Assembly (NCBI GenBank): GCA_009838845.1
Contig: VXRD01000165.1
Coordinates: forward strand, 1 to 40,612
Source: Gemmatimonadota bacterium
Lineage (GTDB): Bacteria > Latescibacterota > UBA2968
Length of the DNA: 40,612 nt
Direction: 5' to 3'
The position numbers and the translations under genes are program-made. This document shows positions 1,549-24,202 of the stretch, piece by piece (within the stretch, counting starts at the first letter, position 1; each line of letters begins with the position of its first letter). The notes beneath the pieces were generated by a model, which did no database searches, was not told the origin of the DNA, and was given only the letters and a program-made list of their open reading frames with translations.

Positions 1549-2640
1549 ATGAAACGGGATGGCTACGATCCCGACCTCATTCACGGCTGCCACAACCGAA
1601 CCGTGGTCATCGACGCGCGTTTGGGCGAAAAAGAAAACAAACACCTCCCCGTCATCGAAGCACACGGCTTGAAAAATATACATCTCTACGAAGGCGAAGA
1701 ATGGATCAACGTACGCGATGCAGTCGGCGACCTCACCGAAAAATTTCTCTGCCTGAACGAAGTCTATCCCAAAGGCTTTCACATTCCCAAACGCTTTATC
1801 AATGAAAACATCATCCATTTCCCCACCGTCAAAACCCACGTCTTTACCACCACCACAGGCGCCATGAAAAATGCCTTTGGCGGCCTGCTCAACGAACGTC
1901 GCCACTGGACGCATCCCGTCATACACGAAACCCTCGTCGATCTGCTCATGATTCAAAAGAAAATCCACCGCGGTGTCTTTGCAGTCATGGACGGCACCTT
2001 TGCAGGCGATGGCCCCGGTCCGCGCTGTATGATCCCCCACACCAAAAACGTCATCCTCGCCAGTGCCGACCAGGTCGCCATTGACGCAGTCGCCGCCAAA
2101 ATGATGGGCTTTGATCCACTTTCAATCAAATACATCCGCATGGCACACGACCTGGGCCTGGGATGCGGAGATCCTTCCCAAATCGAAATTGCGGGTGATT
2201 TGAACGCCGCAGAAGAGAATTGGGACTTTGTTGGCCCGTACAAAAAAATGACCTTTGCCTCTAAAATGCAGCACAAGATCTACTGGGGGAGCCTCAAAAA
2301 ACCCATCGAATGGTCGCTCAAAACCATCCTCGCACCCTGGGCTTATATGGCTTCGGTGCTCTACCACGACAGTTTCTGGTATCCTTTTCATGCTAAAAAT
2401 AAAATGCAAGATGTACTAAACAGCGACTGGGGCCGCCTCTTCCGCAACTGGGAACACCTCACCCCCAACGCACAGGGCTTTCCCGACGTAGGCGACACCT
2501 CTGCAAAACTCAAAAAAACGAACCTGCAAGCCCTGAGGGATTCATTCGGCATCTTGCGCGATTGTATTGTCGAAGCCCCCGAATTCATCCAGTCGCGCAA
2601 AAGAGAAAACACCCTGCACACCCATGACCGAAAACATTAA
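1549..2640 (+). CDS. DUF362 domain-containing protein, N-terminally interrupted
   Basis: The 363-residue frame matches the DUF362 family. It has the stretch around FPTVKTHVFTTTTGAMKN, followed by the MDGTFAGDGPGP and ASADQVAIDAVAAKMMG segments typical of that family. DUF362 proteins have no settled biochemical role; several occur with iron-sulfur or redox genes. No CxxC ferredoxin motif is visible here. The true gene very likely begins at 1351, because coding sequence continues upstream through one TAA at 1432. The ATG at 1549 has no convincing ribosome site and would remove about 66 residues. The 3' end overlaps the next gene by 17 bases, so the two were probably translated together. Confidence 0.75.
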   Translation: MKRDGYDPDLIHGCHNRTVVIDARLGEKENKHLPVIEAHGLKNIHLYEGEEWINVRDAVGDLTEKFLCLNEVYPKGFHIPKRFINENIIHFPTVKTHVFTTTTGAMKNAFGGLLNERRHWTHPVIHETLVDLLMIQKKIHRGVFAVMDGTFAGDGPGPRCMIPHTKNVILASADQVAIDAVAAKMMGFDPLSIKYIRMAHDLGLGCGDPSQIEIAGDLNAAEENWDFVGPYKKMTFASKMQHKIYWGSLKKPIEWSLKTILAPWAYMASVLYHDSFWYPFHAKNKMQDVLNSDWGRLFRNWEHLTPNAQGFPDVGDTSAKLKKTNLQALRDSFGILRDCIVEAPEFIQSRKRENTLHTHDRKH

Positions 2641-3601
2641 CCGCTTATTCCGCGACAAATTGCCGGAACAGCGCATTGCAAAAATCGAACCGCTCTCTGA
2701 AACTCGGGCGCACACAGTCTGGAAAGTCACGACTGACCACTCGGTATTTGCTGTAAAACACCACCTCTTTGCATCGCTCACCCGCGGCAAACCATATCAC
2801 TTGCTCGCCGTTGAACAAAAAGTCACGAACCATCTCCTCGCCAATGGCGCCCCGGTCCCCCGCATCATAGCGACCGACCACGACCTGGTCATCTACGAAT
2901 GGTGCGGCAATCACACCCTCGACGACATCTGCCAGACCACTGACCCCAGCCCATTCACGCACAGCGTCATCAATACCCTTTGCGCCCTTGAAAAAGCCTT
3001 TTGCAAACACAGCGCCAAATTCATCCCGCACATTGCGCCCGGATGTAGCGCGGATGAATTGCGAAAACAGTGGCATAGCACCACCCAATCACTCACAGAA
3101 ACGCTTCCATCACTCGTACGCGACCCAAATGCCTCAGATCTTCCATCAACCTGGGAAACCCTCGTAAACGAACTCATCCACGCACCGCCAGTAATCGGTC
3201 CCACCGACTACAACGCCCGCAACATCGCGTGTCCAAATCCAGAAACAGCAACAGTTCTCGAACTCGCCAAAATTGGCTATGACTGGCCCGAACGCCGCCT
3301 GGTACAATACACGACATCGCTCGGCGCGCACAATCCCCGCGGTCGCATCATTGCACTTCTCACACCATCGTTTGCGCAATACTACGCACATCTCGCATCA
3401 AAATTGTACTCGACCCCGATCAAAACCATCCTCCTGCGCCTCGATGCACATCACCTCATCTATCACCTGTTCGCAGCCCATATATGCCTGACAACGCCAC
3501 ACTGGCAAAATATCAAAACCCGCCTGGCACAACACAAAAGTCATATATCCCAGCCCCTGTCCGACCACCCCCTGGTGAACAAATTCCGCGCGTATTTTTA
3601 A
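2624..3601 (+). CDS. aminoglycoside-phosphotransferase / kinase-fold protein with altered catalytic loop
   Basis: This 325-residue protein has a protein-kinase-like layout: an N-lobe with VFAVKHH (probable ATP-binding Lys), a hinge around LVIYEW, and a C-lobe catalytic loop PTDYNARN with Asp195 and Asn200. In the usual family loop HxDxxxxN the first residue is His; here it is Pro. The following metal-binding DFG-like position reads LELAKIGYDWPERR, so the usual Asp is not obvious. The protein could be active with atypical residues or be a pseudokinase; its substrate is unknown. ATG 2624 is chosen because it starts the conserved part and overlaps the DUF362 gene; an in-frame ATG at 2567 would lie deep inside that gene. 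Confidence 0.7.
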   Translation: MTENINRLFRDKLPEQRIAKIEPLSETRAHTVWKVTTDHSVFAVKHHLFASLTRGKPYHLLAVEQKVTNHLLANGAPVPRIIATDHDLVIYEWCGNHTLDDICQTTDPSPFTHSVINTLCALEKAFCKHSAKFIPHIAPGCSADELRKQWHSTTQSLTETLPSLVRDPNASDLPSTWETLVNELIHAPPVIGPTDYNARNIACPNPETATVLELAKIGYDWPERRLVQYTTSLGAHNPRGRIIALLTPSFAQYYAHLASKLYSTPIKTILLRLDAHHLIYHLFAAHICLTTPHWQNIKTRLAQHKSHISQPLSDHPLVNKFRAYF

Positions 3602-3609
3602 AAAATAAA

Positions 3610-3634
3610 GGCGATCCCATTTCCTGGGACCGCC
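3610..3634 (-). terminator. intrinsic terminator of the glnB-glnE operon
   Basis: The strands GGCG-A-TCCCA and TGGGA-C-CGCC pair around a five-base loop with a single A/C mismatch. Read on the minus strand, the hairpin is followed by a run of T (the AAAAAATAAA at 3600-3609), the classic intrinsic terminator form. It lies 28 bases beyond the glnE stop. On the + strand there is no T run, so it serves the converging gene only weakly. Confidence 0.8.
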
Positions 3635-3662
3635 ATTCCTATCCGTACAACATACCCTGCAC

Positions 3663-6600
3663 CTACGCGATATCTATCACCCGCTCAAAAATTGCCCGCG
3701 TCTGTGCCATATCGTTCTTCAAAACATCTTCAAACACCTCAGCCGTATCAAACCCCATCGCCCGTGCCACTGCTGCCAACGCGCGGTCTTCGGTGGGCAA
3801 ATGGGTACGTGCCTGCTCGTCCTGGCGCCTGATCACTTTTTCTACAGTACGCAAAAACACATACGCTTGCTGGAGACGTTGTGCATCTTCTACCTCCAAA
3901 AATCCGCCCTCTACCAATCTTCTCAGTGCCTCAAGCGTATTGGCACTGCGCAACTCCGGATGATCTTTGGCGAACTTCAACTGCAAAATTTGTACAATAA
4001 ACTCAATATCTACAATCCCCCCCGCATCTGTTTTAATACTCACCACCTTACGGGATCTTTGCCCATTTTTGCGCTCCATCTTCTTGCGAATATCCAGCAT
4101 CGTGGCAACTTCCTCATCCGAAAACCGGCTACCCACAATAAAAGGCTCAAACAAATTCAGCAACTTTTCTCCCAAAACTGGATCGCCAGCGACGACCCGG
4201 CTGCGAGACAATGCCATGCGCTCCCACGTTGACGCGCGCGTCTCCAAATAGCGACTATAAGATTCCAGAGACAGTGCCAGAAGCCCGCTCGCCCCCTCGG
4301 GACGCAACCGCGGATCCACCGGATAGAGCTTACCCTGAGGGGTATTCTGCTCCAGCATCGCGATCATCTGCTGTGACAGATCGATAAAAAATTGCAAATT
4401 CCCCTGCGGCCTTGCGCCATCTGTTTCGCCATCTTCACCATATACAAATACGATATCCAGATCCGAACCGAAACTCAATTCGTCCCCACCCATCTTGCCC
4501 AGACCCAGCACCACAAACCCGACCTCCTCACCGCTGTGATTGCGCGGTACCCCGCGCTTTTCGACTAACCGCGCATAAACCACCTCATAAACCACCTGCA
4601 CAACCACATCGGCCAACATCGTCAGCGCCTCAAATGTTTCAAACGAATCGGTCAAGCCCACGAGATCGCGCGTACCAAAGCGCAGCAACTCGCGATGTTT
4701 TATCCTGTTTAGAACACTCACCAATTCGGACGTATCGCCATACTGCTCAACCTGTGCGCGAAACTGTTCTCGCAAAGCGTCCACACCCGGACTGAGATGC
4801 AAAACCTCTGCTTCCGGATCCAGATACAAAACCTCTGGGCGAACCAGCCAATCGAGCAATCCGGGATTGCGCCTTATCACCTGAACCAGAAATTGGCTGC
4901 CCACACACAGTGACAACATCAGTTGGCGAAACCCCTGATTGGATGCCAAAATGCGGAAAAACATATCGCCCGCGCCATAAGCAGACACCAGACTCTCCAG
5001 ATTGCTCAACCCCTGATCGGGATCGGCGGACTCCTGAAGTGCCTGCATCAATGCCGGTGCCAATTCTGTAAAGCTCTGACGCGCTCGCGTGCCCCGAATC
5101 CGCGGCACATGCCCAAAAGCCAGATAAATGAGATTGCGATGCGCCTCGCCCGGCCGATCAAACCCAATCTCTTCTAACAACCCGCTGGCTTCTGCATCGC
5201 CTATTTCCATATTTACCAGCGCGCCTATAGAACGACCCTCGCTCTCGTGCGCCTCCGTAAAGATCTGGGCATACACCTCCTGTACAGCCTTCAAATGGAC
5301 ATCCAGTATTTTGCGATACGCCCCAGCAGATTCCATATCCATTGTGCGCGCCAATATGCGCTGTTCATCCTCTCCTTCGGGCAGCGAATAATCACTGCGA
5401 TTGTGCATCATCTGCAAGCGGTGTTCCAAACGCCTGAAAAATACATAAGCATCCCTTAGCTGATCGGCTTCCTTACCCGACAGCGCAGATACACGCTGCA
5501 ACTGCCGGATAGCCTCGAGCGTATTATCCGACCTCGCATTCTCGTGTATGCGCCCCACCAGCAATTGCAAACACTGCACAATAAACTCGATATCCCTGAT
5601 ACCACCCGAGCGCAACTTCAAATGCGTCTCGCGCTGCCCCTTGCTTCCAATCTGATCTTCTATACGCGCCTTAACGCGGTTGATCTCCGTTGCCGGGCTG
5701 GTATCAAAATAGCGCGGATAAACAAAGGGCTGTACCATCTTCAAAAATCGCTGCCCCAGGGCTTCAGACCCGGCACAACAACGGGCTTTGATCAGCATCT
5801 GCCGCTCCCACAACTCGCCCCGCCGCATATAGTAGCCCTCATATCCGGCAAGGGGCATCACGAGCGCGCCAGCCGCGCCATCGGGACGCAGGCGCATATC
5901 CATGCGATACAAAAACCCCTCGGGCGTCACCTCTGTTGCCGCACGCACAATTTGCTCACACAATCGGGTGAAAAATTCCTGATTGGTCACAGACCGTTCA
6001 CCATCCGTATTGCCCTCGGCGCTATAGACAAACATCAAATCGATATCCGAACTAAAATTGAGTTCCATACCGCCCAACTTGCCCAACCCAAAAATCGCAA
6101 ACGCCACAGGCTGTCCATCGCCATTTCGCGGCATGCCATAACGCACTTGCAGGTCGGGCAACAAAATATCAATCAACTTTTGCAAACACACATCTGCCAA
6201 AATAGACAAATCAGCCGCAACATATTGAATGGCGCGCCCACCGGCCAGATCGCCTACGCCAATACGCAACAACTCGCGTCGCGCAACCCGCCGAACAGCA
6301 TTGAGCTTGTCTTCGCGCGTATCCACAGCCTCGACAGCCCGTTCAAAAGACGCCAGCAATTGTTCTTTATCACACGATTGTGCAATGCGATCCGGAGCAC
6401 CTGTCAACCAGTCAAAGGTATCGGGGTCGCGCACCAGCATATCAGCCATAAAAGGGCTACCACCCAAAACGCACAACAACATGCGCCACAACTCGGGCTG
6501 TTCTTTGAGCGTGTGCAAAAATGACGCGTGATGCGCGATGCGCACAAAATTATGCAGCGCCATATCGGGGTCGGGCGCATCGACCAACGCCTGAAAAAAA

Positions 6601-13049: not shown

Positions 13050-15476
13050 TTACTCACTCCGCAGGGAATCCACGAGATTAGCACCCGCAGTTCTAACTGC
13101 CTGCCAACCCACCGTCAGCAGAGCAATGATTAGCGTCAGCATCCCACTCAAAATGAAAAACCCGATACTCAGGTCAATGCGATAGGCGAAGTTGTGGAGC
13201 CAACCGCTCATCGCGTAATAAGCGACAGGCCAGGCAAGGAGATTTGCCAGAATAACGGGCTTTACAAAATCCTTTGTAAACAGCAGCACAATATTCGCGA
13301 CTGATGCCCCCAACACCTTCCGAATCCCCACCTCTTTCGTGCGCTGTTCCGCTATATAAGAGGCCAGACCAAACAGACCAAGACACGCGATACAAATAGC
13401 CAGCGCCGTCAAACCGCCAAGCATCTTGCCGCGCTGTTCATCTGCGCGATACTGGCGTTCAAAATAATCGTCTAAAAAAGCGTATTCAAATGGAGAATAC
13501 GGAACATAAGTCTCCCACTTCTCCTTCAAAAAATTCAGCGCATCCGAACTCCGATTGGGACGGACCCTGACCAAAAGATAATTACCGCCACTCGGCAAAA
13601 TATGCAAAAACATCGGTTCAATCTGCTGATAAAGAGATTGAACGTGAAAATCCTTCACCACGCCTATGACAGTACGAGGTCGGCTATCCCGAAATATCAG
13701 CACCAATTCCTTACCAATAGCCTCTTTGGGCGAACTCCAGCCAAAATGCACAACCGCTGTTTCGTTTACAACAACCGCTTCAGATTCGTCGGTCGTGAAA
13801 TCTTTAGAAAAATCCCTTCCCTCAATTATCTCGATTCCAAGAGTTTTTATAAAATCGTGATCAACCGCATAGCCCGGCACCTGCATTTCACCCTGGACAC
13901 CTTCCGGATGCACCGACCGTCTGATAAGTGGAAATACCGTTGATCGCGTTGGCACAGGTACATGAGATGATAGCGTGCAACTCAGGAGATCGGGACTCTG
14001 TAAAAAGTCGGCCTTAATTGACTCGTATTTTGCACGGAGACCTCGCTGTCTGCTGAAAAGCGGCATAGAAATAACGTTCGCCCTTTCAAACCCCAGATCC
14101 TTATCTTTCACATACGCCATTTGCGCGTAAATAACGCTTGTCCCTGTGATCAGCGCGATTGAAATAGCAAATTGGACAACCACGAGCAGTTGCCTGATAC
14201 GCGAAGTCTGCAAACCCGCATGCCGCGCCCCCTTTAACACCGTCACAGGTTGAAATGCAGAGAGAAAAAACGCCGGATAACTCCCGGCAACAATACCCGT
14301 AACAAGCGCGACACCAGCCAAACCCAGTATCGCAGAGATACTGGTGTATTCAACGACCAATTGTTGACCGATCAAACGATTAAAAAAAGGCAGAGAAAGT
14401 TCGACAAGAGAGACCGCAAACAAAAGCGCAATAAATGCCAGCAGTGCAGACTCACCTATAAATTGCCGAATCAATTGCAAGCGATAGGCTCCTACAACCT
14501 TTCTTATACCCACCTCCTTCGCACGCGCGGCAGAGCGCGCCGTCGAAAGATTCATAAAATTGATACAGGCGATCAAAAGCACGAAACAGGCGAGTGCGGC
14601 GAAGATATAGACGTGAACAATATCGCTATTCGGCTCGATCTCGTGACTCAAATGCGAGTAGAGATGGATTCTCGTAATAGGCTGCAAGAAAAATCTCACA
14701 CCCATTCCGCGCGCTGCCAGTGCCTCCCCCATGTATTTTTTCACAAACGCGGGGAACTTATCCTCAAGCTCTTGGGGCGAATATCCCTTCGGAAGAAGCA
14801 CATAGGTATAAAGCACCGGATTTGACAACCAATTCTTCAGAATAGCACCTGTCCCGCTCTCATGTAAACTCTCATATGAAGCCAGAATTTCGAATCTAAA
14901 ATGAGAATTGCGCGGAATTTCCCGTATAATCCCGGTCACTGTGTAATGCTGCTGCACGACCGGCGTTACAAATGTGAGAACCTGACCCATAGGATCTTTT
15001 GTACCGAAATACTTGCGTGCCGCCTTCTCAGTAAGAACCACAGAATACGGCGCCTGAAGTGCCGTATGTCGGTCTCCCTCAATCATGGGAAAATCAAAAA
15101 CATCAAAAACCGATGCATCCCCAAAAAAGATCGGCTCTTGAAAGCGGTTATTCTCATGAAAGATCACAGATGACCCACGCCCGAACTTGACGGTCTGGAC
15201 AACCTCGGGAAATTCGACTCGTAAGGCAGGAGCCAATGGCTGCTGGGAAGTCGCCGTTGGCATAGCCTGTCCATCTGCAGCTATTCGCTCATGTGCAACC
15301 CTGTAAATCCGATCTGCCTTTTCATGATACGTATCATAACTGAGTTCAAACCTGACAAAACTCAAAATCAAGACACAAGTCGCTATACCAATCGCCAATC
15401 CCGCTATATTGACAAATGAGTAAACCTTTTGCCGAAACAGATTGCGCAAAGCGACGGTCAGATAATTTCTTAACAT
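13050..15476 (-). CDS. large FtsX/MacB-type ABC transporter permease (orphan)
   Basis: This 808-residue inner-membrane protein has two repeats of the MacB-like layout. A TM helix near residues 20-42 is followed by a periplasmic MacB_PCD domain to about 270, then FtsX TM helices to about 400. A second half follows with a TM helix near 425-445, a periplasmic domain to about 670, and three TM helices to the end. The hallmark AKEVGIRKVVGA (about 320) and TKEVGIRKVLGA (about 695) occurs twice. Such proteins export or act mechanically with a separate MacB-type ATPase, which is absent here. GGGGAGG lies very close (two bases) to the ATG. Substrates are unknown; related proteins are common in Acidobacteria and Bacteroidetes. 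Confidence 0.9.
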   Translation of the reverse strand: MLRNYLTVALRNLFRQKVYSFVNIAGLAIGIATCVLILSFVRFELSYDTYHEKADRIYRVAHERIAADGQAMPTATSQQPLAPALRVEFPEVVQTVKFGRGSSVIFHENNRFQEPIFFGDASVFDVFDFPMIEGDRHTALQAPYSVVLTEKAARKYFGTKDPMGQVLTFVTPVVQQHYTVTGIIREIPRNSHFRFEILASYESLHESGTGAILKNWLSNPVLYTYVLLPKGYSPQELEDKFPAFVKKYMGEALAARGMGVRFFLQPITRIHLYSHLSHEIEPNSDIVHVYIFAALACFVLLIACINFMNLSTARSAARAKEVGIRKVVGAYRLQLIRQFIGESALLAFIALLFAVSLVELSLPFFNRLIGQQLVVEYTSISAILGLAGVALVTGIVAGSYPAFFLSAFQPVTVLKGARHAGLQTSRIRQLLVVVQFAISIALITGTSVIYAQMAYVKDKDLGFERANVISMPLFSRQRGLRAKYESIKADFLQSPDLLSCTLSSHVPVPTRSTVFPLIRRSVHPEGVQGEMQVPGYAVDHDFIKTLGIEIIEGRDFSKDFTTDESEAVVVNETAVVHFGWSSPKEAIGKELVLIFRDSRPRTVIGVVKDFHVQSLYQQIEPMFLHILPSGGNYLLVRVRPNRSSDALNFLKEKWETYVPYSPFEYAFLDDYFERQYRADEQRGKMLGGLTALAICIACLGLFGLASYIAEQRTKEVGIRKVLGASVANIVLLFTKDFVKPVILANLLAWPVAYYAMSGWLHNFAYRIDLSIGFFILSGMLTLIIALLTVGWQAVRTAGANLVDSLRSE

Positions 15477-15610
15477 GGCCTCCCCTTTTTAAAATTGAAT
15501 CAGCCTCTTCAACATAGACTTAGACAAGATGTTTTTTCTAAGGTTTCTAAAAAATCTTCTCATCCAGACCAATCTCGGGCTGCAATCCAACTTTTTTTAC
15601 CGCAAAGTCC

Positions 15611-15639
15611 TTGTGTACTCAAAGGCTGTGTTTTATACT
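15611..15639 (+). promoter_or_regulatory. candidate promoter of the LarA-like gene
   Basis: TTGTGT at 15611-15616 and TATACT at 15634-15639 are 17 bases apart; the -10 matches five of six. A start near 15646 gives a leader of about 49 bases before ATG 15695. The rest of the 218-base divergent gap (15477-15694) shows no gene. Confidence 0.45.
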
Positions 15640-15694
15640 GTGCTTCAACCTGACGAGACTCCAATCTAACCGCACAAAAACAAAAGAGGCCGCG

Positions 15695-16939
15695 ATGAAC
15701 AACACCGCCACAATACACACCCGTGCATGGGCGGGTGATGAAGCCCTCACCCTCACCTTTCCCGAAGGCTGGACAGTCGAAACCTTTGGTCCACAGGAAT
15801 GTCCTCAAGTCACCGCAGACCAGATCCAGACCGCCTTTGACAACCCCATCGGCACACCACGGATATCAGAACTCGCCAGAGGAAAAAACAGCGCCGCAAT
15901 CATCGTAGATGACCTGAGCCGTCCCACACCCGCTGCCGAACTCATCCCCTATGTCCTCAAAGAACTCGAAACAGCCAGCATCCCTAAAAACCAAATCCGC
16001 TTTGTCGTAGGTGGGGGATCTCACCGTCCAATCGACGCGGAAGAAATCGACAAAAAAGTGGGCGCTGATATCGCCCGCGCATATCAAGTCACGAATCACT
16101 ATTTCATGGGCGGAGACCTGCGCGCCCTGGGCAGCCTGGACAGCGGCCTACCCATTTACATCGACAGAGTTGTCGCAGATGCCGACCTCAAGCTCTGCGT
16201 TGGCGGCATCTATCCCCACGCCAACGTGGGATTTGGCGGCGGTGCCAAACTCATCTTGCCAGGCGTCTCGGGCTTTGCCACCATGTTCTACTTTCACACC
16301 TTTTACGCAAATCGGGGACACGCCAATATTGAACGACAGGGCGACGAACCCGACCATCGAGACGCCGCCGAAGCAGTCGCCAAAGTCCTGGGCCTCGATG
16401 CCGTCGTCAACGTAACACTCAACCGCAAACGCCAGATCACCGGTGTATTTGTGGGCGACTTCATCCAGGCGCAACGCACCGGCGCCCGATTCGCACTAAA
16501 AACCTACGCAACCCGGACACCCGAAACAGAACCTGACCTCGTCATAGCCAACGCCTATCCGCTCGACTACGACCCCGTACAAACCGCCAAAGCACTCTGG
16601 CCGCTTCGGCTCTTCAAAAACGCGTACAAAGTCGCCATCAATCCCGCCACCGATGGAATATGCCATCACGGACTGTACGACGAAATAGACTACGCGCGGT
16701 TTTGCAAACAGCAATCCCAACAGCCCCAGCAAGAACTCCCCGAACCCAAAATTGAAGGCCCGCACCAGACCCTGATGTGGTCTGAAAACTTCCCGGTTGA
16801 CGAATTTTACAAACGCAATCCCGACGGCATTCTCTTCCGCGATTGGGACACACTCCGCAACCAACTCATTGAAAAATTGCCCGATAATGCCCGCGTCGCC
16901 GTTTTTCCAAATGCGGCCATTCAAATTTCCGAAAAATAA
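15695..16939 (+). CDS. LarA-like protein (DUF2088 / nickel-pincer racemase family)
   Basis: The 414-residue protein aligns with lactate racemase LarA, which uses a nickel-pincer nucleotide. The key positions are present: DDLSRPTP (Asp72, Asp73, Arg76), His110 in GGSHRP, His175 in YPHANVGF, Lys185 in GGGAKLILPG, and His201. These fall within two residues of His108, His174, Lys184 and His200 of the Lactobacillus enzyme. The pincer cofactor is therefore probably bound, but LarA homologues act on several 2-hydroxy acids, so lactate is not assured. The cofactor genes larB, larC and larE are not in the window. GAGG precedes ATG 15695 by five bases, better supported than the in-frame ATG at 15611. 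Confidence 0.85.
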   Translation: MNNTATIHTRAWAGDEALTLTFPEGWTVETFGPQECPQVTADQIQTAFDNPIGTPRISELARGKNSAAIIVDDLSRPTPAAELIPYVLKELETASIPKNQIRFVVGGGSHRPIDAEEIDKKVGADIARAYQVTNHYFMGGDLRALGSLDSGLPIYIDRVVADADLKLCVGGIYPHANVGFGGGAKLILPGVSGFATMFYFHTFYANRGHANIERQGDEPDHRDAAEAVAKVLGLDAVVNVTLNRKRQITGVFVGDFIQAQRTGARFALKTYATRTPETEPDLVIANAYPLDYDPVQTAKALWPLRLFKNAYKVAINPATDGICHHGLYDEIDYARFCKQQSQQPQQELPEPKIEGPHQTLMWSENFPVDEFYKRNPDGILFRDWDTLRNQLIEKLPDNARVAVFPNAAIQISEK

Positions 16940-17905: not shown

Positions 17906-19165
17906 ATGAACAAACCCAACATCATCATCGTACTCGCCGACGACATGGGCTATGGTGATTCCAGTGCGTACGGGGGCTGGATCCACACGCCCGCAATGGA
18001 AAAAATGGCCCGCGAAGGGCTTAAATTCACCGACTTTCACTCCAGCGGCGCGGTTTGCAGCCCCACGCGCGCCGGACTACTCACCGGACGCTATCAACAG
18101 CGCGCAGGCGTGCCCAAAGTGATCGGTGCCGATCCCAACAGCGCCGACCACTATGTGGGATTGTACCCCTCTGAAATCACCTTTCCCAAACTACTCAAAC
18201 AAGCTGGCTACACCTCTGCCATCTTTGGCAAATGGCACCTCGGGTACGACAAAAAATTCAATCCCATACACCACGACTTTGATCGCTTTCGCGGATATGT
18301 AAGCGGCAACATCGACTACATCTCGCACTACGACCGCATGGAAGTGTACGACTGGTGGGAGGGCCTCGAACACATCGAAGAAGAAGGCTATACCACACAC
18401 CTCATCACCCAGCATTCCGTACAATTCATCAAAGACCACAAAGACACGCCCTTTTGCCTCTACGTTGCACACGAAGCCGTACACACCCCATTGCAGGGAC
18501 CTGACGACCCCGCCATTCGCGGCCCTGAAAAAGCGGACTTTCATCCCGACGACCCCCGAGAAACCTATTGCCAGATGATGAAAGCCATGGACGATAGCCT
18601 GGCCGAAATCATGGGCACAGTCCGAGAACTCGGCATTGAGGAAAACACCCTCGTCTTCTTCTTTTCCGACAACGGCGGCACCCGTCAAAACCCCGAATCC
18701 AACGCTCCGTTGCGCGGGAACAAAGGCACCGTATGGGAAGGCGGCCACCGCGTCCCCGCCATTGCATGGTGGCCCGGAACAATTGCCCCCAACAGCGTCA
18801 CCGACCAACTCGCCATCAGCATCGACCTCTTTCCCACCATGTGCGACCTCGCTCAAACATCCGCGCCCGACAATCACTTTGATGGCATCAGCCTCAAATC
18901 CACCCTCCTGGGCGAAAATGAACCGGATGCCCGACAATTATTCTGGAATGGTCTTGCCATGCGCGACGACAAGTACAAACTCGTAATCGACAAAGGCACG
19001 CCGCATCTCTTCGACCTATCCCAGGACATATCGGAAAGCAACGACCTCGCATCGCAACAACCCGACCGCGTCCAGCAAATGTGCCATGCAATCGATGCCT
19101 GGAAACGAGACGTAGCCGATGGCGCAACGCCTCAACCTGAACACGATGCAAAAGCGATACAGTGA
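17906..19165 (+). CDS. type I sulfatase (arylsulfatase family)
   Basis: This 419-residue enzyme hydrolyses sulfate esters. The N terminus NIIIVLADDMGYGD carries the calcium-binding Asp pair (residues 12-13). CSPTRAG at Cys51-Arg55 is the CxPxR sequence whose Cys is converted to formylglycine, and FSDNGG supplies the later metal ligand. There is no signal peptide: the conserved core starts at residue 5, and only three bases separate the start from the phyH stop. The enzyme should therefore act inside the cell on an imported sulfated compound. A formylglycine-generating enzyme is needed but is not encoded here. Natural substrates would be sulfated sugars or aryl/alkyl sulfates. Confidence 0.93.
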   Translation: MNKPNIIIVLADDMGYGDSSAYGGWIHTPAMEKMAREGLKFTDFHSSGAVCSPTRAGLLTGRYQQRAGVPKVIGADPNSADHYVGLYPSEITFPKLLKQAGYTSAIFGKWHLGYDKKFNPIHHDFDRFRGYVSGNIDYISHYDRMEVYDWWEGLEHIEEEGYTTHLITQHSVQFIKDHKDTPFCLYVAHEAVHTPLQGPDDPAIRGPEKADFHPDDPRETYCQMMKAMDDSLAEIMGTVRELGIEENTLVFFFSDNGGTRQNPESNAPLRGNKGTVWEGGHRVPAIAWWPGTIAPNSVTDQLAISIDLFPTMCDLAQTSAPDNHFDGISLKSTLLGENEPDARQLFWNGLAMRDDKYKLVIDKGTPHLFDLSQDISESNDLASQQPDRVQQMCHAIDAWKRDVADGATPQPEHDAKAIQ

Positions 19166-19190
19166 CAGTGGTCGCGGTGTAGATGGCGTA

Positions 19191-19220
19191 TTGACTTATT
19201 GCGAGAGTCAGCGTTATATT
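19191..19220 (+). promoter_or_regulatory. promoter of the ATPase/TOPRIM module
   Basis: TTGACT at 19191-19196 and TATATT at 19215-19220 are 18 bases apart, each matching five of six consensus positions. The start would be near 19227, about 40 bases before the ATPase ATG. Its presence in the 100-base gap after the sulfatase suggests the pair is expressed independently of the upstream operon. Confidence 0.6.
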
Positions 19221-19265
19221 TCACTATCTCAAAATTTTCGCCCTGCAAAAAGAGGTAATAACGCT

Positions 19266-20444
19266 ATGTCCCAAGAACGACTCGGCAACCGGCTGCGCCT
19301 TCCGAGCCTATCGATAAAGGGATTTCGGGGGATTGACGAGCTTACCATTGATCGGTTGGGCCGCGTAACCCTGATCGCCGGAAAGAATAGCGTCGGCAAA
19401 ACGACCGTCTTAGATGCCATCCAGATTTATGCGGCACGTGGTCATTATGATATTCTGTCTCAACTATTAACAAGCTGCCAAGAAGTCTCTATCGCTACCC
19501 TCTCGGATGTCAACGATCAAAGAAGATTTGTACCCGATTTTCCTGCCCTATTTCACGGACGCGATGTGTCGGAATGTGCCCGCATCGAAATTGGCCCGAA
19601 AAACGACACAGACCAACTCAGGATAGAGGAGAGTTTGCCGATCGAAAGGCAGGCTTATCAAATCGAAAAATATCTATCTCGGTCTGTTGCAAGAGGCTAC
19701 ACGCAAGTATTCCGTGTCGTCTTTCAAGACACAGAACAGATACTTCCCTGGATACTACCTATCCAGGGATCGGATGCGGCCAGAACCGTAGAACGTTATA
19801 GCGTTAGCGCGTGCTTATACTTAGAGAGGTTATTGGACGAAGCTAAATGGTCGTCTCCAATAGGATGTCAATTTTTGGGACCGGGCCTGTTGAGCGACGA
19901 AGAAATTGTACGATCCTGGAATGCCATTGCGCTAACAGAAGATGAGGACCGAGCGGTGCAAGCCCTGAGACTGATCTTCGGCAACGATCTGGAGCGCGTC
20001 GCGGTGCGCCGAGATGAAATATCATCTGGAAAAGAATATGTCCAGCGGGTGGTAGCAAGACTCCGAGGTCAAGCCCGTCCAGTCCCTTTGCAAAGTCTTG
20101 GCGATGGGGCACTGCACCTATCTGGCGTCGCTCTGGCACTGACCAATAGCCGCGACGGTTTCTTGCTCATCGATGAAGCGGAAAATGGCATTCACCATTC
20201 CGTACAGCGCGATTACTGGCGCATGGTATTCGAGACCGCAGAGGCAAACAACGTACAGGTTTTGGCGACAACGCACAGCTTTGACTGTCTGCGCGGCTTT
20301 GCACAAGCGATGACCGACTGCGAGGATATTGATGGTGCGCTCGTGCGCCTTGAGCGAGAGAATGGAACCCTTCGTGCGGTTGAGTATTCGGAACGCAATA
20401 TCAAAGCCGCTGCAAAGCAACGCATTGATATTGAGATGAGGTAG
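19266..20444 (+). CDS. AAA/ABC-type ATPase of the OLD/AAA_15-21 group, first gene of a two-gene module
   Basis: The 392-residue protein begins SIKGFRGIDELTIDRLGRVTLIAGKNSVGKTT, shown here only to locate the Walker A Gly39-Thr46. It has a signature-like SLGDGALHLSG, Walker B LLIDEAENG (Asp303, Glu304) and a switch His near 336 in TTHSFD. This is the SMC/RecF-like ATPase of OLD nucleases and of the AriA subunit of PARIS, without a fused TOPRIM domain. The next gene, four bases on, encodes a separate DUF3226/TOPRIM-like protein. Codon choice (more T- and A-ending, AGA, CGT) differs by eye from flanking genes, suggesting transfer. ATG 19266 follows AGAGGT; the longer frame reads back into the sulfatase gene. 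Confidence 0.85.
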   Translation: MSQERLGNRLRLPSLSIKGFRGIDELTIDRLGRVTLIAGKNSVGKTTVLDAIQIYAARGHYDILSQLLTSCQEVSIATLSDVNDQRRFVPDFPALFHGRDVSECARIEIGPKNDTDQLRIEESLPIERQAYQIEKYLSRSVARGYTQVFRVVFQDTEQILPWILPIQGSDAARTVERYSVSACLYLERLLDEAKWSSPIGCQFLGPGLLSDEEIVRSWNAIALTEDEDRAVQALRLIFGNDLERVAVRRDEISSGKEYVQRVVARLRGQARPVPLQSLGDGALHLSGVALALTNSRDGFLLIDEAENGIHHSVQRDYWRMVFETAEANNVQVLATTHSFDCLRGFAQAMTDCEDIDGALVRLERENGTLRAVEYSERNIKAAAKQRIDIEMR

Positions 20445-20448
20445 GTGG

Positions 20449-21054
20449 ATGGAGAATAATGACCGCGTTCTTCTCGTTGAAGGGACAGATGACGAGCATG
20501 TCGTCAGACATCTTCGCCTTAGACATCAAGCAATGCCACAATTCAGTATTCAGAACAAAGAAGGCATAGAAAAACTTCTCGACGACATTGGTCTGGAAAT
20601 TTTAGCTCCTGGGCGCAAAGCCATCGGCATCATTGTAGATGCGAATGACGATTTGGACGCCCGCTGGAATGCTGTAGCAAATAGGCTTCGAAAAGAGAGC
20701 ATTGAAGTGCCCAGCAGTCCAGAACCAACCGGCACGATTATATCCAGTACCCCTCGCGTCGGCTTATGGTTCATGCCCGACAACACATCGCCCGGCGAAC
20801 TCGAAAATTTTGTCTCCGAAATGATTCCCGACGACGATCCGATATGGCCGCGGTCCCAGCACTACATTGACGACATTCCAGAGACGGACCGAAAATTTAC
20901 CGAAAAAAAGATATTGCGAGCCAAGGTCCACGCATGGTTAGCGACCCGAGAGGACCCCAGGCCGATGGGCACCGCCATTCGCGCAGGTGATTTGCAAATA
21001 GATGGCACACTCAGCACAACATTCGCAAAGTGGCTACAGCAGCTATTCGAATGA
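20449..21054 (+). CDS. DUF3226 protein, TOPRIM-like, partner of the adjacent ATPase
   Basis: This 201-residue protein opens with RVLLVEGTDDEHVV (Glu11), followed by IIVDANDDLDARW (Asp64, Asp67, Asp68). That is the Glu-then-acidic-cluster pattern of TOPRIM nucleases. The family stretch GLWFMPDNTSPGELENF is the DUF3226 hallmark. In OLD enzymes the TOPRIM domain is fused to the ATPase and cleaves nucleic acid; in PARIS it is a separate DUF4435 subunit. A nuclease or effector role here is therefore inference from the fold and pairing. GAGGTAGG overlaps the ATPase stop and serves as its ribosome site, so the two genes are tightly coupled. Confidence 0.8.
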   Translation: MENNDRVLLVEGTDDEHVVRHLRLRHQAMPQFSIQNKEGIEKLLDDIGLEILAPGRKAIGIIVDANDDLDARWNAVANRLRKESIEVPSSPEPTGTIISSTPRVGLWFMPDNTSPGELENFVSEMIPDDDPIWPRSQHYIDDIPETDRKFTEKKILRAKVHAWLATREDPRPMGTAIRAGDLQIDGTLSTTFAKWLQQLFE

Positions 21055-21115
21055 ACAAATTTTCGCTTTGCGTCTTCTTTTTTGTGATTTGATTTTTTAA
21101 ACAAAAGGTGGATTA

Positions 21116-22657
21116 ATGCTTGGACTACACCTGCTGGACTTTGCCACGCTCGCCATTTATTTAATCGGCATCATGATTGCCGGCCTATGGGTCGCCCGCA
21201 AAATCAAAAATACGGGCGACTATTTTATGGGTGGGCGCAGCTTTGGCAAAACATTTATGATCATGCACGCCTTTGGCACCGGCACCCACACCGACCAGGC
21301 CGTAACTGTAGCAGGTGCCTCCTACAAATTGGGCATGGCGGGGATATGGTATCAATGGCTCTACTTATTCGCCACCCCCTTCTACTGGCTCATCGCGCCA
21401 ATATGGCGAAGGCTGCGCTACCTCACCATAGCGGACTTCTTTGAAGATCGGTTCAGCAACTCGCTCGGTTATTTCTACGCCCTCTATGGCCTGCTCTACT
21501 TTGCCATACAAATAGGCATCATGCTCCTGGGCACCGGCAAAACAGCCAGTGCCATGACCGGCGGCGCGATCTCTCCTGAAATCGCCATCGGTGTGATGAC
21601 CGTCCTCTTCCTCTCCTACGGTCTATTAGGCGGCCTGCCCGCAGCCATCATCACCGACTTTATCCAGGGCATCTTCATCATCGTCCTCTCCTTTCTCCTC
21701 GTCCCCTTTGTCATCGACGGCGTCGGCGGCTTCACCGGCCTTCACCAGCAAGTACCCATTGAAAAATTCAGCCTCGAAGCCCCCGGCGATCCCCCGGCCG
21801 GATACGACCGCATCACGCCCTTCTTCATCGTCATGGTCGTCATCAACGCCCTCGTCGGCATCATTGCCCAACCCCACCACATGGAAATTGGCGGTGCGGG
21901 CAAAACCGAACGCGAAGCCCGCGTGGGATTCACATACGGCAACATGATCAAACGCCTCTGCACCGTAGCCTGGGCATTTACCGGCGTAGCCTGCATTGCC
22001 CTTTATCCCAACATCGACGACCCCGAACACGCTTTTGGGCTCGCCTCGCGCGACCTCTTGCCCATCGGCCTCGTCGGCATCATGCTCGCCTCGATGATCG
22101 CCGCAGTAATGTCCACCTGCGACTCATTCATGGTCGATGGCGCCGCTCTCTTTGTCGAAAACTTTTACAAACCCCTCTTCAAGCCCGAAGCCGACGACAA
22201 ACACTACCTCACCACAGGTCGTATCGTCGCCCTCATACTCGTCATATTCGGCATAATCATCGCGCTCTATTTCACCTCTGTCGTCGCAATTATTCGCCTC
22301 TCCTGGTCGCTCGTGGCATTCTTTGGAATTGCATTCTGGGGAGGAATTCTCTGGCGCAGATGCAATGCGCCCGGCGCCTGGGCGGGCCTGGTCGTCTCGG
22401 CATTTTTATTCGCCATATCCGGTCAAACAATCATCAATTTGGAAAGCCTGGGCATCTACATTGGCGGCCTCGACTGGGAATTGCCCTATCGCTACGTACT
22501 CTACATCGCCGGCGGTTTTGCCGCACTCATCATCGTCAGCAAACTCACCAAACCGCAAGACAAAGAGCGACTCGACCGCTTTTACACCTTGCTCCACACG
22601 CCTGTGGGACAAGAGCACAAATTGCGCGAAGCCGGCATAAAAGTTGTTATGGAGTAA
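21116..22657 (+). CDS. sodium:solute symporter, SSS family
   Basis: This 513-residue inner-membrane transporter has about 13 predicted TM helices. The SSS signature regions are visible: GDYFMGGRS after TM1, followed by GTGTHTDQAVTVAGASYKLG, and the GLLGGLPAAIITDFIQG stretch around TM5-6. Sodium-coupled uptake of sugars, amino acids or organic acids is the family role; the solute is unknown. AGGTGG lies six bases before the ATG. The following GH51-like gene starts nine bases after the stop, so the symporter may import the sugar that this secreted enzyme releases, which is inference from gene order. Confidence 0.93.
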   Translation: MLGLHLLDFATLAIYLIGIMIAGLWVARKIKNTGDYFMGGRSFGKTFMIMHAFGTGTHTDQAVTVAGASYKLGMAGIWYQWLYLFATPFYWLIAPIWRRLRYLTIADFFEDRFSNSLGYFYALYGLLYFAIQIGIMLLGTGKTASAMTGGAISPEIAIGVMTVLFLSYGLLGGLPAAIITDFIQGIFIIVLSFLLVPFVIDGVGGFTGLHQQVPIEKFSLEAPGDPPAGYDRITPFFIVMVVINALVGIIAQPHHMEIGGAGKTEREARVGFTYGNMIKRLCTVAWAFTGVACIALYPNIDDPEHAFGLASRDLLPIGLVGIMLASMIAAVMSTCDSFMVDGAALFVENFYKPLFKPEADDKHYLTTGRIVALILVIFGIIIALYFTSVVAIIRLSWSLVAFFGIAFWGGILWRRCNAPGAWAGLVVSAFLFAISGQTIINLESLGIYIGGLDWELPYRYVLYIAGGFAALIIVSKLTKPQDKERLDRFYTLLHTPVGQEHKLREAGIKVVME

Positions 22658-22666
22658 GGAGTCGTC

Positions 22667-24202
22667 ATGCGCCTCATAGCCATATTGCTTATCGCCGCAC
22701 TCTATACGAGTTTGGGAGCTACAGACCCTGCACTGCATATAGAAATCGACCGCAGCGAAACGCAAACCCTCCCCAAAAGCCTCTATGGCTTCAACACGAA
22801 CATGATGAGCGGTGACTACGGTTATCTCGACTCTAACTTCGTCGCGCTCACAAAAGACCTGCAACCCCAGATACTGCGTTTTCCCGGAGGCACAATCGGC
22901 AATTTTTACCACTGGAAAATAGCTGGGTTTATCCAGAGTGAAATGAGTTCAACCGGCAGCGAGCAACTCAACAGACGAAACAGAGGCAATTTTGTCAGAC
23001 TGAGAAAAAGGAGAAATGGGAGACTCGCATTTGACGACTTCATGCAAATGTGCAACGCGCTAAAAATAACGCCCATCGTAGTCGTCAACCTGTGGACGGG
23101 AAGCCCGGAAGAAAGTGCCGGATGGGTCCAATACGCAAAAAACAAGGAATACGAGATCGCGTATTGGGAACTCGGCAATGAGCATTATCTACCGTGGTAC
23201 GCGGAAAAATATCCCTCTGCGGAAACCTATATCGCACAAGCCAAAAAACATGCACAGGCGATGAAAGCCGTTGACCCAACCATAAAAGTCTCGGTCTGTG
23301 CAAGCCCGGTAGCCTTCCACAAGAACGGCTTTGAAAAAAACGTGGATCAACGCAAATGGGACAGTGCATTGGCGGCTGCAGATCAATTTTACGACGCCTA
23401 TACCGTTCACGTCTATGCTTATCGGACCGCTCGAAAAAAAGAAATTGAGGAATATCGGGGCTATCTCTTTGGTTGGATCCACTGCGATATCGATGACGCC
23501 ATGGACTACTATGAAAAATTATTCCCCAACGTGGAAATGTGGATAACAGAATGGAATATCGCCAATCCCGCAAACCGGGTCGCCAACACACAATTGCACG
23601 CCATGTACACGGGCGACTTCTTCCTAAAAATGCTCACATACCCGCGCATTACCCATGCAAATTTTCACGTACTTGCCGGTCCCGGCAAAGGATTCCCCAC
23701 ATTCTCCCCAATCGCACCCCCATCGCCGAGAACCAATTGGAAATACGGAGGTGAACCAGAGGCGGACTTTGGAAAAACAATCCGGCGCGCCACCTACTAT
23801 CCCCTTCAGTTAATCGGAGAAGCATTCGCGGAATCGGACACAAAATTCTCCCTCGCCATCCAAAATCCACCCATCCTCAATGGACAGCTCGAATACGAGG
23901 GAAAACAAATACCGGGTATCCAGGCACAGGCAGTCGGAAGTGCCGCGCACCTTTTTGTACTCATTAGCAACCGCACAGCAGACGACCTATCGCCGGACCT
24001 CACCATCGACGGCAAAAAATATGAAGGCACGCTCACATATCGCTACGTAGCCCATGAAAGACTCAATGCATCAAATGGCGGAAATGCGGAAATGGAAGGC
24101 GCGGGCAAAATAGAAGTCGCAATCCGCGAATGGTCTGGTGCTTGCAATAATCTCTTGATTCCCAAAAACAGTTTTGGCATTTTAGTGTTATCGCTCAACT
24201 AA
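22667..24202 (+). CDS. secreted GH-A clan glycosidase, alpha-L-arabinofuranosidase (GH51)-like
   Basis: The 511-residue protein has a signal peptide (MRLIAILLIAALYTSLGA, likely cut before about residue 19). A TIM barrel with GH-A clan catalytic acids follows: the acid/base Glu172 in ELGNEHY and nucleophile Glu295 in WITEWN. RFPGGT near residue 71 and the C-terminal beta-sandwich (about 410-511) match GH51 and related families (GH39, GH79). It probably trims arabinose or a similar sugar from polysaccharides outside the cytoplasmic membrane. AAGGAG precedes the start. It is cotranscribed with the upstream symporter and the small membrane protein downstream. The exact GH family needs a profile search. 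Confidence 0.8.
   Translation: MRLIAILLIAALYTSLGATDPALHIEIDRSETQTLPKSLYGFNTNMMSGDYGYLDSNFVALTKDLQPQILRFPGGTIGNFYHWKIAGFIQSEMSSTGSEQLNRRNRGNFVRLRKRRNGRLAFDDFMQMCNALKITPIVVVNLWTGSPEESAGWVQYAKNKEYEIAYWELGNEHYLPWYAEKYPSAETYIAQAKKHAQAMKAVDPTIKVSVCASPVAFHKNGFEKNVDQRKWDSALAAADQFYDAYTVHVYAYRTARKKEIEEYRGYLFGWIHCDIDDAMDYYEKLFPNVEMWITEWNIANPANRVANTQLHAMYTGDFFLKMLTYPRITHANFHVLAGPGKGFPTFSPIAPPSPRTNWKYGGEPEADFGKTIRRATYYPLQLIGEAFAESDTKFSLAIQNPPILNGQLEYEGKQIPGIQAQAVGSAAHLFVLISNRTADDLSPDLTIDGKKYEGTLTYRYVAHERLNASNGGNAEMEGAGKIEVAIREWSGACNNLLIPKNSFGILVLSLN

Follow-up and report, generated by a model that had tools for sequence, protein, structure and literature searches.

An inserted ATPase-DUF3226 gene pair in a Latescibacterota genome as a candidate PARIS/AbiL-like defence system

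The stretch of DNA analysed here, hereafter the window, is the 40,612-nucleotide contig VXRD01000165.1 (forward strand; assembly GCA_009838845.1) of a bacterium deposited as Gemmatimonadota and placed by GTDB in Latescibacterota, UBA2968. It is contig 165 of a 5.75-Mb genome that is 97.8% complete, and, judging by the sets of metagenome-assembled genomes (MAGs) of its relatives, the host genus is probably sponge-associated. Two adjacent genes on the plus strand of the window are the subject of this study. The first runs from the ATG at 19266 to the stop at 20444 (the longest open reading frame (ORF) in the same frame starts at 19119) and encodes an OLD/RecF-type ABC ATPase of 392 amino acids, our proposed sensor and regulator. 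The second lies in a different frame, begins with the ATG at 20449 and stops at 21054, leaving a gap of four bases after the ATPase stop, and encodes a protein of 201 amino acids that matches Pfam DUF3226 (1.1e-53) and is predicted to be a TOPRIM two-metal nuclease, our proposed effector. By Pfam, the block around the pair consists of LarA, PhyH and sulfatase genes on one side and an SSF symporter gene on the other. A preliminary description made from the letters alone had already named an intact RecF/OLD-type ATPase, a DUF3226 gene four bases behind it and a block interrupted between sulfatase and symporter, and the ORF coordinates and profile searches agree with it on each of these points.

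The pair is an insertion and is polymorphic within the genus. When we sought the sulfatase and the symporter in ten other genomes of the genus, six of them (G029, G030, G031, G032, G034 and G035) contained an empty site, in which the sulfatase gene ends about 20 bases from the symporter start. In G033 and G037 the pair occupies this sulfatase-symporter site as it does in the window, and the nuclease gene of G037 has an in-frame stop. In G038 an unrelated spacer of about 0.3 kb separates the two genes; a 340-base stretch compared with the insert gave chance-level matches only, and thus no remnant of the pair. The contigs of G036 end at the site. In G035 (L118) the sulfatase was below the search threshold and is apparently shortened by loss of an internal stretch, with its last stretch and the junction present, and this loss beside an empty site indicates that the block decays independently of the cassette. 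Homology of the window to the empty sites ends at about 19135 and returns at 21103-21116; therefore a segment of about 1.97 kb (19136-21102, right edge between 21102 and 21115) was inserted and the last sulfatase codons were replaced. Since nothing but the two genes lies in the insert and no clean target duplication was seen by eye at its edges, we rejected insertion by a recognisable mobile element.

Upstream of the ATPase gene we found a predicted sigma-70-type promoter (TTGACT, 18 bases, TATATT; 19191-19220, plus strand) and, by sequence reading, a probable ribosome-binding site (19250-19255, plus strand). The promoter agrees with the consensus at 10 of 12 positions, a match that is weak alone because the scan returned 6 promoter-like sites where shuffles gave a mean of 2.6 (standard deviation 1.8). 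Both hexamers with their spacing and the ribosome-binding site are kept in all three filled sites (the window, G033 and G037), which supports the earlier proposal of an own promoter within the limit set by about 92% identity among the copies. Codon use had been described as unlike that of the C-rich neighbours. Third-position C is indeed 0.28 and 0.33 in the pair versus 0.49-0.55 in the LarA, PhyH, sulfatase and symporter genes, and the two genes are the second and third worst fit to window codon use among 25 genes. However, the window genes g352 (0.29) and g34817 (0.31) are equally C-poor and the gene at 13050-15476 fits worse, so that codon use is weak evidence of foreign origin and the pair departs from the adjacent block only weakly. 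Across the window (352-39571) position-3 base use depends on the strand, many plus-strand genes being C-rich and most minus-strand genes C-poor and T-rich. Downstream of the symporter, positions 22667-24199 encode a protein of 511 amino acids that has no Pfam match at 1e-5.

The ATPase matched AAA_15 (2.8e-16) and AAA_21 (1.9e-15) in Pfam. Its best family in PADLOC-DB was PDC-M38A (1.4e-76, 256.5 bits), followed by AbiLi (6.5e-46, 155.4 bits) and, lower, AriA (5.8e-21). Walker A, Walker B, LGDG and switch His motifs are all present, and an alignment of 85 sequences, the window's among them, shows no variation at L36, G39, N41, K45, G279, G281, D303, E304, H310, Q331 and H337. The predicted structure (pLDDT 88.7) was about equally close to SMC heads, Septu/retron PtuA, GajA and AriA, with mostly tied Z values of 16-18 in VIA-align. 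AriA has a long coiled-coil arm, and such an arm was not seen in our model.

The best PADLOC-DB family of the DUF3226 protein was PDC-M38B (2.9e-41, 139.6 bits, residues 5-201), next to a marginal GajA stretch at E 0.043. Its AlphaFold2 model, built with 90 sequences, has a pLDDT of 96.6, and we used VIA-align as a second look at the candidate matches of Foldseek. The top row was the archaeal PH0156 (2p62; Z 11.8, 3.3 Å, 182 residues), which we do not claim as a DUF3226 protein because profile searches of the PDB did not list it at E ≤10. The C-terminal regions of OLD nucleases scored 10.5 (6nk8; 5.2 Å, 164 residues), 9.8 (6njv; 5.5 Å, 172 residues), 9.6 (6p74; 3.3 Å, 128 residues) and 9.1 (6njw and 6njx), with some unrelated proteins reaching 8.9, retron Eco2 7.7 and AriB 6.6. 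When the PDB was searched by sequence, using the protein or its profiles, no relative reached significance, AriB coming at E 1.5 and 0.6 and RNase M5 at 1.2. The TOPRIM assignment is based on the family models of Pfam and PADLOC, on the comparison of folds and on residue conservation. In Class 2 OLD nucleases, metal A is bound by E400, D455 and D457 and metal B by E404, T506 and E508, with K562 in addition (PMC6755086). Matching by order, spacing and secondary structure rather than by superposition, we found counterparts of the Bp OLD ligands in the same order and with similar spacing, namely E11 (89/90), an acid at position 15 (D15; 87/90), D64 (90/90), E119 at a helix start (90/90) and a basic R/K157 (87/90). 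V10, D64, P110 and E119 are invariant in the 90 sequences, window included. Finally, the DUF3226 profile aligned with four DUF4435 proteins of the phylum, three of them over the family cut-off, over 69 columns within its first 78 residues (95% probability, pairwise E 3e-8), while hhalign gave no alignment with seven RloB proteins. Based on these observations, we predict that the DUF3226 protein is a nuclease with a TOPRIM-like fold and most of an OLD-type two-metal site. The Glu/Asp pattern proposed in the preliminary description is thus conserved, except that the second acid of the DxD motif is usually Asn, and the structural likeness to TOPRIM on which that description depended was found.

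Within the phylum, DUF3226 occurs in 15 of 64 genomes (host included), RloB in 6 and DUF4435 in 6, of which 4 are over the family cut-off. The 34 DUF3226 rows correspond by reading to 32 gene places, four of which look broken or cut and in this resemble dispensable genes. A homologous ATPase ORF was found at all 30 loci of the phylum search and at the three loci of the host genome. For a wider sample we scanned one genome per species (84,980 species) with a profile and kept the best 80 of 470 relatives. The ATPase lies directly upstream of DUF3226 at 78 of the 80 loci, the exceptions being L048, at a contig edge, and L111. Of 83 loci, three of them from plasmids, 77 could be read for spacing, and in 76 of these the DUF3226 start nearest to the ATPase stop falls within -20 to +40 nucleotides of it; choosing the nearest start favours small values. 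Distance matrices of the two proteins were strongly correlated (Mantel r 0.92 for 77 loci and 0.86 for 70 core loci; at most 0.31 in 2000 permutations). These comparisons indicate that the two genes are inherited together. A quick tree of 73 sequences, 70 of them with a phylum label and representing ten phyla, required at least 25 phylum changes; shuffled labels (200 times) gave a mean of 45 (40-49), and 9 would be expected if each phylum formed one clade. This suggests a history of inheritance combined with repeated transfer, subject to errors in MAG labels and in a quick tree. For the alignments, 13 DUF3226 and 14 ATPase loci with less than 85% profile coverage were dropped, four duplicate loci were skipped and the ATPase of L002 was restored by hand. 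Also left out were L035-L041, L093, L114 and L115 from the DUF3226 alignment used for folding and counts, and L026, L027, L034-L040, L093 and L114-L116 from the ATPase alignment, in both cases mostly near-copies plus plasmid rows.

The host genome contains three DUF3226 genes, and an ATPase gene adjoins DUF3226 at both non-window sites as well. At the second copy (L160, contig 108), an HNH endonuclease gene (3594-4367; PADLOC HNH 3.1e-120) is directly beside the pair and a gene for a Fic-like protein (2633-3514) is next. At the third (L161, contig 138), a large E2/E1/JAB protein is encoded about 2.5 kb away; this protein (13373-16831) is a single chain of 1153 amino acids with prokaryotic E2 (family A), ThiF/E1, JAB and patatin-like phospholipase domains, which amounts to components of ubiquitin-like conjugation joined to what may be a membrane effector.

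Relatives were also found on viral contigs and plasmids. A scan with one short pattern detected DUF3226 on five IMG/VR contigs, each with the ATPase, and their neighbours include tail proteins (L158 and L159), integrases (L156 and L159) and a filamentous-phage Zot-family protein (L155), while the neighbours tested at L157 match only families of unknown function. Two different queries gave no match in an annotated phage collection. In a plasmid collection whose gene table is incomplete, a second query matched 138 records, 124 of them from Klebsiella; 13 of 20 among the matches listed are smaller than 5 kb, and the ATPase is beside DUF3226 in all six records examined. A Klebsiella plasmid of 4,119 bases (L183) has four annotated genes, encoding an HTH protein, Rop, the ATPase and DUF3226, and another plasmid of 4,693 bases has five; on two 4-kb ColRNAI plasmids the pair is nearly the sole annotated cargo. 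A Citrobacter plasmid with the pair also has mobilisation genes, on a Plesiomonas plasmid the pair follows a run of phage tail genes, and one plasmid from Acinetobacter has a gene for tetracycline efflux near the pair. The Klebsiella plasmid branch is a distant cousin, because the match of its nuclease to PDC-M38B is no better than 5e-11 and AbiLi (1.6e-58, 196.9 bits) fits its ATPase better than M38A does (8.1e-44, 148.7 bits). When we searched E. coli genomes by blastn, two plasmid queries gave no match, and the pair of Klebsiella pKpnB4_4 was found in 9 of 5426 genomes at 13 places, all on plasmids and none on chromosomes. Taken together, the sequence comparisons indicate that the cassette moves between sites and hosts.

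We then compared the surroundings of the pair with control regions at 20 of the 80 loci, namely those whose contigs were long and for which the same genome offered a matched control stretch. Test sets were the genes within about 5 kb, excluding the pair, and controls came from a 10-kb stretch about half a contig away (164 test versus 171 control proteins; 60,628 versus 60,625 residues); for L048, whose contig starts at the pair, context was taken downstream only. The PADLOC families matched at 1e-10 numbered 104 and 179 in the two test sets and 9 and 28 in the two control sets, counts that overstate the difference because one gene matches many PADLOC models. Among the matches listed, test-set families include HmaB/HmaC, type I, II and III methyltransferases, HEC-01A/B, bSEFIR, Argonaute and AbiEii, and control-set families include PDC-S01, S02, PDC-M72A, IetA, mad3, mREase_IV and methylase models (HmaB at 8.5e-26). 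At 5 of the 80 loci (L044, L052, L053, L074 and L104) the pair lies between HmaB and HmaC, with two further genes between the pair and HmaC at L104, and at L041 HmaB is present upstream only. The Hma calls were made by PADLOC for L053, L074 and L104 and by similarity for L044, L052 and L041, and by title the hosts of the nested loci are Rhodothermales, Caldilineaceae and Pseudomonadales. It has been confirmed that systems inside Hma operons (HEC) give phage resistance (PMC12111858), and in the available part of that paper the ATPase-DUF3226 pair is not among the HEC systems named. Consistent occurrence in a fixed housekeeping context would have spoken against defence; what we found is a polymorphic insertion with relatives near defence genes, on viral contigs and on plasmids.

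This genomic context points to a role in defence, and we consider it likely that the two genes form an anti-phage (or anti-mobile-element) system of the candidate type PDC-M38, resembling PARIS and AbiL. The PARIS/AbiL logic with a third TOPRIM family is the simplest reading. In such a mechanism, the ATPase would bind the DUF3226 nuclease and keep it inactive, and on sensing an infection product it would license the nuclease. Like AriA/AriB of PARIS, which acts on tRNA, the licensed nuclease would then cut an essential nucleic acid (tRNA, other RNA or DNA), and the cut would stop the infected cell.

Several observations weigh against this reading. First, the window's own neighbours are metabolic genes by Pfam and not a defence island, the 80 loci are the best-scoring of the 470 relatives and mostly come from MAGs, and the family counts of the context comparison are inflated as described above. 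Second, Foldseek against the PDB ranks the OLD C-terminal regions first, but at E 4.3e-3 to 8e-3 with none below 0.001, and in VIA-align succinyl-CoA synthetase (Z up to 8.9) and Piwi (8.6) come near the OLD rows, with alignments of about 110 residues, so that the fold by itself is no proof. Third, the second DxD acid (position 66) is Asn in the window (Asn in 62, Asp in 25 and Glu in 3 of 90 sequences), and T506 of OLD was assigned no counterpart. Fourth, nucleic-acid binding is not obvious because the DUF3226 protein is acidic, with a net charge of -11 and a family mean of -5.4. Finally, the literature searched yielded no phage or nuclease assay for the PDC-M38/DUF3226 family.

We suggest tentatively, at somewhat less than even chance, that DUF3226 may be a TOPRIM immune effector lineage in its own right, paired with a dedicated ATPase and forming a further split OLD-type class beside PARIS and AbiL, and that its Asp-x-Asn site may mean a substrate unlike that of AriB or GajA. 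The lineage is spread over ten phyla in our sample, is nested in Hma operons and is near-sole cargo of some 4-kb enterobacterial plasmids.

A variant of the defence reading, in which the pair, much like P2 OLD or Gabija GajA, cuts the DNA of the invader or of the host and cleavage of tRNA or other RNA plays no part, is a serious possibility that falls a little short of even. The conserved residues match those of Class 2 OLD nucleases, enzymes that cleave DNA in vitro (PMC6755086), and the OLD C-terminal regions are structurally closer to the DUF3226 model (Z 9.1-10.5) than AriB is (6.6). On the other hand, the split two-gene layout and the TOPRIM core are common to PARIS, whose effector cleaves tRNA (PMC12409363), RNase M5 has the same site geometry (PMC6755086), and the next gene in the window encodes a symporter and not a GajB-like helicase. 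It is rather unlikely that the pair is an addiction module, with DUF3226 as toxin and the ATPase as antitoxin, whose benefit is maintenance of the carrier element and not immunity. Such a module would fit the two 4-kb ColRNAI plasmids with hardly any other annotated cargo, the 124 Klebsiella records among 138 plasmid records and the toxin-antitoxin behaviour that AbiL-related AAA/TOPRIM_OLD pairs showed in neutralisation assays (PMC10440598), but the window copy and the genome loci were read in chromosomal or metagenome contigs, are polymorphic and sometimes broken, and addiction alone does not predict relatives near defence genes and inside Hma operons. A housekeeping factor of DNA repair or the cell cycle, like RecF or the archaeal OLD protein Cran1, is highly improbable: the ATPase fold is as close to SMC/Rad50 heads as to PtuA, GajA and AriA, and an essential, apparently non-defence OLD protein is known in archaea (PMC12796447), but the pair is patchy in the phylum, has empty sites and broken copies, and is carried by plasmids and viral contigs.

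TOPRIM effectors are recurrent across bacterial immunity, and their function was called largely unknown in a discussion of 2025 (PMC12409363). The ATPase-DUF3226 pair, assuming a defence role, offers a tractable and widespread TOPRIM case. The question of the DUF3226 substrate is directly testable in laboratory E. coli, because the pair is about 1.8 kb long, occurs on small enterobacterial plasmids and has a near-complete OLD-type site, and the answer would attach a function to a domain that Pfam lists without one.

We finally compared the pair with known systems. OLD nucleases (classes 1-3) and Gabija share with it a TOPRIM-like fold, most of the two-metal site and a related ABC ATPase. However, OLD combines ATPase and TOPRIM in one polypeptide whereas the window encodes two proteins in different frames, which excludes a single-protein OLD nuclease, and Gabija was rejected as the next gene is the SSF symporter and not a UvrD-like GajB helicase. 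AbiL has the same two-gene abortive-infection layout (PMC10440598), and AbiLi is the second-best family of the window ATPase and the best of the Klebsiella plasmid ATPase; the ATPase is thus closer in its profile matches to AbiLi than to AriA, which goes beyond the preliminary description. AbiLii is RloB-like, however, and the DUF3226 protein was matched neither to RloB by Pfam or hhalign nor to AbiLii by PADLOC, so we rejected RloB as the partner family and membership in AbiL. In PARIS, likewise, the ABC ATPase and the TOPRIM protein are encoded separately, and Ocr is an example of a trigger protein by which AriB is activated. The ATPase holds the effector until a phage protein is sensed, after which the effector is released and cuts tRNA (PMC12409363). 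The detection rule of PARIS requires an AAA_15/AAA_21 ATPase adjoining a DUF4435 protein (PMC9122126). The window ATPase conforms, but its partner is a DUF3226 protein of about 200 amino acids, for which Pfam did not list DUF4435 at E ≤1, while solved AriB chains (DUF4435) have 305-316 amino acids, and the AriA model is far below M38A for the ATPase. Identity with PARIS was therefore rejected, as the preliminary description had anticipated in drawing the parallel with DUF3226 in place of DUF4435; the parallel itself is borne out by the 69-column profile alignment with DUF4435. Neither DUF3226 nor PDC-M38 is named in the open-access literature searched, which covered only a minority of subscription papers and no bioRxiv preprints, and we found no prior description of the pair in the available parts of PMC12137116 and PMC10568477. 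The pair is nevertheless already catalogued as a defence candidate, which the preliminary description had not recognised, because PADLOC-DB 2.0.0 lists PDC-M38A and PDC-M38B as a phage-defence candidate. PDC-M38 is the best PADLOC family of both proteins over nearly their full length; judged by family match and adjacency, the ATPase belongs to PDC-M38A and its partner to PDC-M38B, and we found no difference from this candidate. Thus, the locus adds a member to a candidate family that is already catalogued and does not represent a new kind of system.

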